Below, one piece after another: positions 106 to 58,952 of a stretch of 64,000 bases of DNA. Both the position numbers and the translations under genes were made by a program. This DNA is from Bradyrhizobium septentrionale (GTDB lineage: Bacteria; Pseudomonadota; Alphaproteobacteria; Rhizobiales; Xanthobacteraceae). The notes under the pieces were generated by a model that was not told the origin of the DNA, made no database searches, and saw only the letters and a program-made list of their open reading frames with translations. Position 1 is the stretch's first letter. Each line of letters begins with the position of its first letter. The DNA lies in contig NZ_CP088285.1 of NCBI RefSeq assembly GCF_011516645.4, positions 7,706,501 to 7,770,500 of the forward strand, written 5' to 3'.

Positions 106-237
106 CGGCAGGCCCCGTGGTAGAAATGCAGTTGTTATGGGGGCTGGATTTGCGACAGGCGCCAGATCGCATGGCCGGCGAACGCCGGGCATGGCAAACG
201 AGCAACCGCCGGACACCCCGCCCGTGGACGTTCTGAT

Positions 238-415
238 GTCACGGCAGGTCTCCTGGCTCGCAGGTCATCGCCACGCCCTGTCTTCCCAATGCGCACGGCG
301 CACCAGTGACTTAAATCGGGAGTGACTCACTGCTTACAGTTGCGGGGGCAGCGCCGGAATCTCGCAGCACGTGCGATTCACCGACTTCCCTCTTAGTCAC
401 CAAATCTTGCGATCC
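238..415 (-). promoter_or_regulatory. Cobalamin (AdoCbl) riboswitch
   Basis: Read on the minus strand, the stretch shows the conserved cobalamin riboswitch pieces in order: a GGTGACTAAGAGGGAAG-like start near 405-388, the core GCTGCCCCCGCAACTGTAAG near 350-330, and the B12 box GCCAGGAGACCTGCC at 257-243. The same elements occur in the metE riboswitch of this window. It should repress the gene running off the left edge when cobalamin is abundant. The outer boundaries are approximate. Confidence 0.88.
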
Positions 416-669
416 GGTGGAACCATGACAGCTATATGTGGTGATATTCGTCCCGAAGTGTCAATGGGCGGTTAATGCCTTTACGCAAAAAACCGCCTCG
501 CAAGACAGTTCGAAGACAACTTGGCCCCGTTATCCACATTGGGGACCGTTTGAACTTCCGTGTTCCTACGGAACGAGACGGGAAAAGGCGCTGATGAGAC
601 TGCACCGATTCTGTCGGAGCCCGATAGAGACGTTCTCGACCACGTCGATGCGCAAGCCTGATTCTCAAT

Positions 670-9238: not shown

Positions 9239-9419
9239 CCCTTCTTTCCGACGCTGTTCGCTCCGGGACACCAACCAGCACCGGCGCCGTCAGGGCCGCG
9301 AACCGATTGAAATCGGAACCCAATTCTAGGGGTTTGAGGACAAGCCGGTAACGGGCGATTGAGCAATACCAAGGTGTTTCCAGTCACGGTCATTGACTGC
9401 GGCCGGACTTGACCTTAAC

Positions 9420-9605
9420 TCCAGTGCTGTCGTGGTTCTGCGGGCTCGTTTGGCCCGGAGCTAAGAGGGAAGCCGGTTGAAAGCCGGCGCTGCCCCCGCA
9501 ACTGTAAGCGGTGAGTTGTTGTCCAACAAAGTCACTGAGGCCCGCGAGGGTCTTGGGAAGACCGGACAACAGCACTGACCCGTGAGCCAGGAGACCTGCC
9601 TCGAC
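9420..9605 (+). promoter_or_regulatory. Cobalamin riboswitch of metE
   Basis: The stretch carries GGGAAGCCGGTTGAAAGCCG, then the core GCTGCCCCCGCAACTGTAAG, and ends in the B12 box GCCAGGAGACCTGCC (9586-9600). It lies 115 bases upstream of metE, the B12-independent methionine synthase, the classic gene repressed by this riboswitch. The 5' limit is approximate. Confidence 0.93.
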
Positions 9606-9633
9606 AACAGAACGTACTCGGGCGGGGTGTCTC

Positions 9634-56509: not shown

Positions 56510-57127
56510 ATGAGGACAGGACGATTGCGCGCACTGAGGTATTTGGCATTGGGAACGCGGCTGCTTGCAACCGCGGTGCTGGCCCTGCCCTTCGCGGCGC
56601 CGGCCCATGCGATCACGAGTTCGGCTGCCGCAGCCCTCACCCCGCGTGACAATGACAACGCGCTCGACGTGCATGCGGTTCGCCGCGAGCTCGACAGCTT
56701 CCAGGCCGCCCAGATCTCGCTGCGCAAGGCGATGGCAATTGCGGAAGCGCTGCACTCCGGTGCGATCACCGCCGACATCAGCTTTGACGGCGCATCGCTT
56801 CCCGCGGTCTACCGCGTCAAGACCATGCAGCAGGACCGCATCTGGCACCACGCCATCGACGCTGCGACCGGTGAAGTGGTGGGTGGCGAGGCCGCCTCGC
56901 CGCTGACGTCGCTGGGCGCCGAGGACCGCGGCAACCTCGTCGTGCTCAGGGCGCTCCGGCACCGCCTGTCGGATGCGGTACGCGTCGCCGAACGCTCGAC
57001 CTCGGGAAAGGCGATCAGCGGCGGCCTGATGCGCGAGCGCGGCAAGCTGAATTTCGTGATCGTGGTGCTCGCCGGCAGCGATCTGAAAGAGGTGATCCTC
57101 GAACCGCCCGGCGCACGCAGGCGGTGA
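56510..57127 (+). CDS. PepSY-like secreted protein
   Basis: The 205-residue protein has a signal peptide ending near AHAIT, then a PepSY-type region: helix ISLRKAMAIAEALHSG, strands ITADISFDGASLPAVYRVKT and DAATGEVVGGEAA, typical of PepSY domains. It is periplasmic; the role is unknown. Confidence 0.65.
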   Translation: MRTGRLRALRYLALGTRLLATAVLALPFAAPAHAITSSAAAALTPRDNDNALDVHAVRRELDSFQAAQISLRKAMAIAEALHSGAITADISFDGASLPAVYRVKTMQQDRIWHHAIDAATGEVVGGEAASPLTSLGAEDRGNLVVLRALRHRLSDAVRVAERSTSGKAISGGLMRERGKLNFVIVVLAGSDLKEVILEPPGARRR

Positions 57128-57229: not shown

Positions 57230-57301
57230 TACGCGGGCCTTGCCAGATTTTCGCCCAAAAGTCGTTGACGGACGCCGATCTCTGCCGCATAAGTCCGAAC
57301 C

Positions 57302-57373
57302 ATGATCACCGCGACCAAACGCACCACCAAAACCACCAAGCCCTCCGGGGCCTCGGGAGGCGTGCGCGCGTAG
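57302..57373 (+). CDS. Threonine-rich leader peptide of asd
   Basis: The 23-codon frame reads MITATKRTTKTTKPSGASGG then VRA. It has six ACC threonine codons within the first twelve, two of the pairs adjacent. It ends just before the asd terminator. Such leader peptides let ribosome stalling report charged tRNA levels. The ribosome site is weak. Confidence 0.7.
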   Translation: MITATKRTTKTTKPSGASGGVRA

Positions 57374-57433
57374 TCGGTCGAACCGCATCATCTCTACCCG
57401 AAGCCCCGCCTGATGAAGGTCCGGGGCTTTTTT
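57346..57433 (+). promoter_or_regulatory. Transcription attenuator of asd
   Basis: The terminator arms AAGCCCCG (57401-57408) and CGGGGCTT (57422-57429) are followed by TTTT. The leader segment CGGGGCCTCGGG (57346-57357) can pair with CCCGAAGCCCCG (57397-57408) over twelve bases with one mismatch, forming an exclusive antiterminator. Threonine shortage should stall the ribosome on the ACC codons and allow asd transcription. Confidence 0.78.
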
Positions 57434-57466
57434 GTTGTCTGCAGCACATCTCAAATGGAGGACAAA

Positions 57467-58492
57467 GTGAGTAACGATCCCGTCGTCGCGATTGTCGGCG
57501 TCACCGGCGCAGTCGGCGCCGAATTCATTTCCACCATGGACAAGCGCGGCTTCCGCGTCGGCAAGCTGAAGGCGCTGGCGAGCGCCCGCTCGGCCGGCAG
57601 GACCGTCGCCTTCCGTGGCAAGCCGGTCGTGATCGAGGAGCTGACCGAGCGCGCCTTCGAGGGTGTCGACATCGCGCTGTTCTCGGCCGGCAGCGGCATC
57701 TCGAAGAAGTTCGCGCCGCTGGCAGTGAAGTCCGGTGCGGTCGTGGTCGACAATTCCTCGGCGTTCCGGATGGATCCGAACGTGCCGCTGGTGATCCCCG
57801 AGATCAACGCCAACCGCATCCGCGACCACAAGGGCATCATCGCCAACCCGAATTGTGCCGCCATCACCGCGCTGGTGCCGCTATGGCCGATCCACCAGAA
57901 GAACCGCATCAAGCGCGTGATCATTTCGACCTATCAGGCCGCGAGCGGCGCCGGTGCCGCCGCGATGGAGGAGCTCGTCGAATCGACCCGCGCCAGTCTC
58001 AACGGACAGGTCTACACGCCGAAGGTGATGCCGCACCCCTACGCCTTCAACCTGTTCAACCACAACACGGCCGTTGACCCCGAGACCGGCTACAACGGCG
58101 AAGAGACCAAGGTCATCAAGGAGACCCGCAAGATCTTCGAGGACGACAAGATCGCGATCGGCGTGACCTGCGTGCGGGTGCCGGTGCTGCGCGCGCATTG
58201 CGAGGCGATCACCTTCGAATGCGAGAAGCCGATCACCGAGGACCAGGTCCGCGCAATCATGGCGCAGGCGCCGGGCGTCAAGATCGTCGACGATCGCACC
58301 AAGAACTACTTCCCGATGCCGATCGACGCGTCCGGCCAGGACGACGTGCTGGTCGGCCGCATCCGAAAGGATCTAAGCGATCCTTCTGGCCATTCGATCT
58401 CGATGTTCGTCGCGGCCGATCAGTTGCTCAAGGGCGCCGCGCTGAACGCGGTGCAGATCGCCGAGCTCTTGCCCGAACGCGCGATGGCGTGA
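57467..58492 (+). CDS. asd: Aspartate-semialdehyde dehydrogenase
   Basis: The 341-residue protein has the NADP motif VGVTGAVGAEF, then the active-site Cys in NPNCAAITALVPL (about residue 130) and the later signature region around HCEAITFECE. It makes aspartate semialdehyde for lysine, threonine and methionine. GTG 57467 is taken because GGAGG lies five bases upstream; the frame opens earlier. It follows the Thr leader. Confidence 0.95.
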   Translation: MSNDPVVAIVGVTGAVGAEFISTMDKRGFRVGKLKALASARSAGRTVAFRGKPVVIEELTERAFEGVDIALFSAGSGISKKFAPLAVKSGAVVVDNSSAFRMDPNVPLVIPEINANRIRDHKGIIANPNCAAITALVPLWPIHQKNRIKRVIISTYQAASGAGAAAMEELVESTRASLNGQVYTPKVMPHPYAFNLFNHNTAVDPETGYNGEETKVIKETRKIFEDDKIAIGVTCVRVPVLRAHCEAITFECEKPITEDQVRAIMAQAPGVKIVDDRTKNYFPMPIDASGQDDVLVGRIRKDLSDPSGHSISMFVAADQLLKGAALNAVQIAELLPERAMA

Positions 58493-58564
58493 GCGACAAT
58501 GGAGGGTGGGCAAGGCGCCAGCGCTGCGCCCACCTCAACCCGAAAAGCAAGAGCAGGACGTATC

Positions 58565-58952
58565 ATGCCAAGCACTCGGATCACGACCGGCATTTGGGCC
58601 CGCGGCATCGAGGCCCAGGTGATCGGAGCCGTCCAGGACGCTCTGCTCGCGGCGCTGAAAATCCCTGACTACGACCGCGATGTCGTGCTCGACCTCTATG
58701 ATGACGCCGCCCGGATCGTTCCAACGGGCCGATCGGAGCGCTACACACGCATCGAGATTTTCCTGTTTTCCGGACGATCGCTGGAGGCGAAGAAAGCTCT
58801 GTACGGCGCCGTAGTGGCGAACCTCTCCGCCCTCGGCGTGCCCGCGAATGAGATCAAGACCGTTCTGATCGAGGTTCCACCCGACAATTGGGGGCTTGCG
58901 CGGAGGTTTGCCTGCGTCCGAAATTGACCTCGGGTTCAAGGTTGACGTCTGA
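58565..58952 (+). pseudogene. Tautomerase-family protein, frameshifted near the C-terminus
   Basis: The start MPSTRITTGIWARGIEAQVI has the Pro after Met used as the catalytic base in this family. The body reads on to PPDNWG, but the frame then leaves the usual tail and ends at 58927. Deleting one G of the GGGGG run (58890-58894) gives NWGLRGGLPASEIDLGFKVDV, the expected ending, at 58952. Either a true insertion or a base-calling slip. Confidence 0.75.

Follow-up and report, generated by a model that had tools for sequence, protein, structure and literature searches.

The region between positions 57265 and 57467 of the analysed window (the whole 64,000-nucleotide stretch of Bradyrhizobium septentrionale contig NZ_CP088285.1) probably controls transcription of a second aspartate-semialdehyde dehydrogenase gene, asd2, by ribosome-mediated attenuation, the signal being a shortage of threonine and probably also of lysine. 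A sequence-only reading had already interpreted this region as an attenuator, and both its architecture and its conservation beyond the genus bear this out. Assignment of the gene is based on the score of its product against the NCBIfam equivalog model asd_B (403.6 bits, cut-off 324.2) together with the presence of both semialdehyde-dehydrogenase Pfam domains. The canonical gene of the same genome (asd1, at G000:C2:2671289) is 44% identical to asd2 and is devoid of a Thr/Lys leader of this type. Adjacent to asd2 are genes for a PepSY-domain protein (56510-57124) and a tautomerase-domain protein (58499-58924), and the domain scan of six neighbours revealed no other gene of the aspartate pathway.

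Architecture of the asd2 leader in the window

Table 1. Features of the asd2 control region (window coordinates)
Feature	Position	Strand	Basis
-35 element TTGACG	57265..57270	+	read from sequence; conserved among Bradyrhizobium leaders
-10 element CATAAG	57288..57293	+	read from sequence; conserved; predicted transcription start
Leader ORF MITATKRTTKTTKPSGASGGVRA	57302..57373	+	ORF reading and conservation in relatives
Control codons Thr3 Thr5 Lys6 Thr8 Thr9 Lys10 Thr11 Thr12 Lys13	57308..57340	+	conservation among 59 distinct ORFs of 23 codons
1:2 structure (proposed), 5′ arm in control codons	57312..57380	+	minimum-energy fold of the window leader alone
Segment 2, antiterminator 5′ arm	57346..57357	+	11 of 12 pairs with 57397-57408
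Segment 3, common to antiterminator and terminator	57397..57408	+	pairing in the window; covariation tables
Intrinsic terminator (3:4) with U-tract 57428-57433	57400..57433	+	fold energy; pairing in 38 sequences
Shine-Dalgarno (SD) sequence of asd2, GGAGG	57457..57461	+	read from sequence
asd2, second aspartate-semialdehyde dehydrogenase	57467..58492	+	GTG start at 57467; NCBIfam and Pfam; paralogue comparison

A gap of 8 bases separates the putative promoter, TTGACG-N17-CATAAG, from the leader ATG (57302), which would place the start of transcription within a few bases of this codon; owing to such proximity the leader ORF, having no SD in view, is probably translated as a leaderless message. 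A simple scan for promoters and terminators reported neither this promoter nor the terminator at 57400-57433, since it accepts only -10 hexamers with T in the sixth position and loops of 3-8, which excludes both. The 23-codon ORF with six ACC triplets among codons 1-12, noticed from the sequence beforehand, is present base for base (ATG ATC ACC GCG ACC AAA CGC ACC ACC AAA ACC ACC AAG CCC TCC GGG GCC TCG GGA GGC GTG CGC GCG TAG). Equally confirmed are the intrinsic terminator just upstream of asd2 (stem 57400-57430, -18.0 kcal/mol, followed by six T) and the complementarity of a 12-base leader segment to the 5′ side of this terminator, with a single C·A mismatch. Thus two components of attenuators of the trp/his/thr type, namely a short ORF that can be translated and in which codons for a pathway product cluster, seen in the window as well as in relatives, and an intrinsic terminator between the leader and the gene, are both found here.

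The minimum-energy 1:2 fold of the window leader taken alone (-24.2 kcal/mol), the 2:3 duplex (-23.6 kcal/mol) and the 3:4 terminator have calculated energies of similar size, as a switch needs. While the leader is free, the 1:2 structure would hold segment 2, although its exact pairs are uncertain, because the consensus fold of 38 aligned sequences (37 from Bradyrhizobium plus L061), which recovers the terminator, places different and smaller hairpins upstream of it. Folding of the whole leader is no better than that of its shuffles (z -0.61; 48 of 200 did equally well). For the 2:3 duplex the mean z over 38 representatives is -1.91, and 18 of them surpass their shuffles at p<0.05. Covariation of both stems in relatives had been suggested as a check, and its outcome is divided: the 3:4 stem, paired in 94.7% of cells over the 38 sequences, has one compensatory cell, while for 2:3 pairing, retained in 78.2% of cells (90.8% in the inner helix and 63.2% in the outer one), no compensatory changes were found within this Bradyrhizobium set. 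The outer 2:3 helix, in the register of the window, is unpaired in about half of the sequences.

The following sequence of events may be proposed. Transcription would start at the leader ATG or immediately upstream of it, and the leader would be translated without an SD. With ample charged Thr-tRNA and Lys-tRNA the ribosome would reach the UAG at 57371 and cover part of segment 2, so that the terminator could form and transcription would stop before asd2. If either tRNA were short, the ribosome would be expected to halt on Thr/Lys codons and open the structure holding segment 2, whereupon 2:3 pairing would block the terminator and allow read-through into asd2. Judging by the general geometry of the translating ribosome, its position at Thr8-Thr11 would free most of segment 2, and that at UAG would cover the 3′ part.

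Leaders of asd2 within and outside Bradyrhizobium

The gene is present in 138 of 146 genomes of the genus, partial copies counted; seven of the rest have weaker matches only and one has none. Nearly all of the 80 named loci with this paralogue carry the genus name Bradyrhizobium. Across 187 genomes of the same family outside the genus it was detected in one (G218, 84% identity, the next best match being 51%), and it recurs at no less than 57% identity in scattered alphaproteobacterial families. Search of plasmids with the asd2 of L202 (tblastn) returned 138 records, all below 60% identity, and for this reason no context is named for asd2 outside the genus. Several further observations concern copies and labels: a further asd2-like copy occurs in four Bradyrhizobium genomes (G070, G075, G117, and G132; 91-92% identical and matched up to residue 335-338); L171 and L177, with 336 residues matched, may also be further copies, the leader of L171 being more diverged (MIILTTRSSKTTKPSGASGGVRA); and L134 (JAUEPE010000002.1), from a record titled Frankia sp. 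RB7, carries an asd2 that is 94% identical and Bradyrhizobium-like by gene, making the label doubtful.

The parsed set comprised 140 loci drawn from overlapping sources (138 from Bradyrhizobium plus L061 and L081; 115 distinct sequences), and every one of them carries a Thr-bearing leader followed by a hairpin. If L050, missed by the parser and possessing both elements, is counted in, the leader and the terminator are intact in 139 of 140 Bradyrhizobium loci. The exception is L053 (genome G292), with a frameshift in the leader after the Thr/Lys run; its frame continues through the terminator and enters asd in frame, which may be a natural variant or a sequencing error. Retention of the terminator with loss of Thr codons had been named as the observation that would speak against an attenuator; the two are kept together across Bradyrhizobium, in favour of attenuation. 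The arrangement TTGACG-17-CATAAG-8-ATG is exact in 95 of the 115 distinct leader sequences, and a TTGAC promoter with some allowed form of the -10 element is found in all but L081 (114/115).

Among 59 distinct 23-codon ORFs, Thr11 is invariant, Lys6 and Lys10 are each kept in 58, and the remaining Thr positions are retained in 34 to 54, with codons varying among ACC, ACG, and ACT. At two positions threonine and lysine are interchanged: codon 12 is Thr in 46 ORFs and Lys in 7, and codon 13 is Thr in 34 and Lys in 17. Lineages with few threonines also exist in the genus (three in L049 and four in L050), and the GGVRA tail of the leader is conserved in it. A search for purifying selection on the leader frame, in which distinct control-region codon variants one step apart were counted, found no synonymous excess (ratio 0.90), which speaks against strong selection on the frame at this depth.

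Outside the genus, a Thr/Lys leader precedes asd2 in 29 of 47 loci, distributed over 13 families including that of the window (for example, MSPKTKATTKTKKPFRASVIARA, MRRSTDKRTTTSTKTPAGVVEACAR, and MSKRTQTTTTMTKKTTLRGGLFVMRAA). They were accepted by eye from the Thr/Lys run, the position and the hairpin, the poorest being L194 (2 Thr, 2 Lys) and L191 and L198 (3 and 3 each); L199 (truncated) as well as L062 and L063 (51% and 47% identity) were left out of the 47. In the other 18 (L188, L189, L192, L193, L204, L246, L247, L255, and L280-L289), no leader was found within 380-420 bases. Little is conserved in these DNAs beyond the Thr/Lys run and a hairpin of the GCCCCGCC..GGACGGGGC type, and the U-tract is absent from many of the hairpins (e.g., L196, L197, L200, L202, and L203).

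A further element, segment 5, can pair there either with the 3′ arm of the hairpin (4:5) or with the SD region (5:6), the two pairings being overlapping. Thus in L194 CCCCGTCT may pair with GGACGGGG or CCCCGTCTCT with GGAGACAGGG, in L278 and L279 CCCCGACC with GGTCGGGG or GGAACCC with GGGTTCC, and in L213 CCGTCC with GGACGG or TCCTTCC with GGAAGGA, so that pairing is kept though the sequences change. This parse covered 23 of the 29 loci (without L061, L186, L196, L200, L233, and L234), and no good segment 5 helix was found in L184 and L257. Pairing of the asd2 SD is stronger in leader-bearing loci outside the genus (mean z -1.03, n=26) than in leaderless ones (0.11, n=18; p 0.0009, a value inflated by kinship and favoured by setting aside beforehand L061, L184, and L186, which have the U-tract form), and in Bradyrhizobium a helix covering the SD is absent (mean z 0.61, n=38). 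L195 combines a T-run with an SD helix, and L185 and L253 have such a helix with a weaker T-rich stretch. Shuffle tests on 26 loci (without L061, L186, and L257) are suggestive only, with p<0.05 for 2:3 in 5, for 4:5 in 10, and for 5:6 in 7, the automatic choice of segment 3 being wrong in some (e.g., L187 and L190). Altogether, the lack of a U-tract in many hairpins and a possible helix over the asd2 SD suggest that versions operating at the level of translation may exist outside Bradyrhizobium.

Leaders before asd1 and the contribution of lysine

The same composition was encountered upstream of the canonical paralogue. A short ORF with at least five Thr in 12 residues precedes asd1 in 46 of 97 regions versus 0 of 97 reverse complements, and the same rule applied around the start of the open frame gave 0/30 for hom and 1/30 for lysC. 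These 97 regions are a convenience sample, 91 of them from the order of the window and six from elsewhere; all 46 positives belong to this order (35 among regions hand-picked from listings), and none of the six does. The only lysC positive, L403, is not a convincing leader. Occurrence of Thr/Lys leaders before both asd genes, with next to none in the 30 hom and 30 lysC regions, argues for the attenuator reading. Could the ORF in the window be a chance Thr-rich frame in front of an ordinary terminator of the upstream unit? Short GC-rich ORFs are common, and terminators found by the simple scan do not outnumber those in shuffles of the region (3 versus 1.7), but the asd1 counts, the conserved promoter belonging to the leader itself and the already contradicting conservation make this very improbable.

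The asd1 leaders resemble those of asd2 in composition and differ in layout. In the 46 (e.g., L084, L091-L094, L301, L307, and L357) the Thr/Lys run often occupies the very end of the ORF, and repeats of the CTCTCCCC/GGGGAGA kind often come after it, close to the SD. A helix covering the SD was tried as the output of these leaders and dismissed, loci with and without leader being alike (46 versus 45, p 0.56); hence no mechanism is claimed for asd1.

The proposal that asd responds to threonine alone is not supported, since Lys codons accompany Thr codons in all three leader sets. In control windows, taken as the 12 residues richest in Thr of each leader and counted over distinct peptides, Lys accounts for 115 of 275 non-Thr residues in asd2 leaders of Bradyrhizobium (54 peptides), 62 of 158 in those from outside the genus (28 peptides), and 89 of 247 in asd1 leaders (44 peptides), i.e., 36-42% compared with 3% (15/448) in a control of 64 Thr-rich windows taken from long open frames at these loci. 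The leader sequences are related and do not represent independent draws, yet two paralogues with different leader layouts agree. No leader without Lys was found among 113 distinct sequences from Bradyrhizobium, 29 other asd2 leaders and 46 asd1 leaders. Met, the third product of the pathway, is not generally enriched (14/158 in asd2 leaders outside the genus). Because Lys codons go together with Thr codons in each set, the signal is likely to be threonine and lysine.

It might alternatively be supposed that threonine alone is sensed and that Lys codons are a filler keeping the control region unstructured. Indeed, Thr exceeds Lys by about 3:1 in control windows, A-rich triplets avoid base pairing, and the codon used is AAA in 114 of 115 cases in Bradyrhizobium and in 72 of 89 in asd1 leaders (AAG in 17), a dominance that an A-rich spacer would also produce. 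However, A-richness alone is an unlikely cause of Lys, because other A-rich options are rare in Bradyrhizobium windows (Asn in 4 of 275 residues, ACA in 1 of 345 Thr codons) and AAG is common in asd2 leaders outside the genus, where its near equality with AAA (29 and 33) points to retention of the amino acid and not of a particular triplet. The Lys share in all three sets is likewise difficult to reconcile with a filler, and Lys6 and Lys10 vary less than any Thr position except Thr11. Sensing of threonine only is therefore considered unlikely. Six genes of the window including asd2 use AAA 11 times and AAG 60 times. The Lys codon preferred in the leader is thus the rarer one, a preference also known from some attenuators.

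Taking both paralogues together, we put forward, tentatively and with rather less than even confidence, a widespread alphaproteobacterial family of two-amino-acid (Thr and Lys) leaders, in which Asd, and not aspartokinase or homoserine dehydrogenase, would be the leader-controlled step. Such leaders would have arisen independently on asd1 and asd2, some of them would be the first to sense lysine by codons, and their output would have changed between lineages from a terminator in Bradyrhizobium to a segment 5 relay elsewhere (4:5 leaving the SD free, 5:6 closing it). To our knowledge, no leader peptides reading lysine by its codons have been known earlier; if lysine really is sensed in this way, one more amino acid would be added to those read by leader peptides. 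A terminator here and masking of the ribosome site elsewhere, attached to one leader type, would show how the output of an attenuator changes. Little was found in open-licence literature on the step at which alphaproteobacteria control the aspartate pathway, and asd under leader peptides tuned to two end products of the pathway, in soil and plant-associated bacteria including rhizobia, offers a testable answer.

Comparison with described systems

Database models gave no counterpart of the leader. Rfam applied to 57230-57500 with E up to 10 returned no Thr_leader and two sub-threshold matches only (asX2 and suhB); at the gathering cut-off other features only were reported in the window, and nothing in 17 related loci. 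Among such other elements are two strong cobalamin riboswitches at 9416-9617 (+) and 226-442 (-). NCBIfam models matched none of five leader peptides and the sORF of L301. In open-licence literature on such asd leaders one precedent was found, SEP5 of Sinorhizobium meliloti; no description of classic attenuation on this gene (asd) or with this codon pair (Thr/Lys) was found in that literature.

According to the passages of PMC10117765 that deal with SEP5, translation of this sORF is supported by Ribo-seq and Western blot; it lies in the 5′ UTR of a gene termed aspartate dehydrogenase, is proposed there as a possible leader peptide, no mechanism being offered, and is described as conserved in Sinorhizobium only. 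Like the leaders considered here it has clustered Thr and Lys codons, six of the former and three of the latter towards its 3′ end. The L301 sORF (CP090106.1, S. meliloti), one of the 46 found before asd1, has the same Thr and Lys counts and ends with KTTAKTTTKTV; these counts and its place lead us to infer that it is SEP5 and that the gene in question is asd. It differs from the window leader in belonging to canonical asd1 and in having no U-tract terminator visible by eye.

Another relative in organization is rnTrpL of Sinorhizobium, in the corresponding passages of the same source (PMC10117765) a leaderless transcript beginning at the ATG of trpL, an attenuator RNA with a role described in trans. 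Alphaproteobacterial host and an attenuator RNA starting at the leader ATG (predicted for the window) are common to both, while rnTrpL differs in its pathway (Trp, trpE), its codons and the trans role described. By analogy with rnTrpL/peTrpL, the asd2 leader could also work in trans through a functional small RNA and/or peptide, attenuation being only part of its role; the conserved GGVRA tail, the short transcript that the terminator would be expected to produce and the very example of a leaderless attenuator RNA (PMC10117765) agree with that. However, conservation of the tail may be due to its overlap with, or adjacency to, segment 2, and outside Bradyrhizobium the tail is not kept while the Thr/Lys run is, making a trans-acting product improbable.

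The attenuator proposed for asd2 is close in design to thrL of E. coli (Rfam Thr_leader), sharing with it a short peptide rich in Thr and a gene of the threonine pathway downstream, and having a predicted antiterminator that would exclude the terminator as in thrL. The E. coli leader is located upstream of thrABC and senses Thr and Ile, whereas that of the window combines Thr with Lys, has no run of Ile, precedes asd, and is apparently leaderless.
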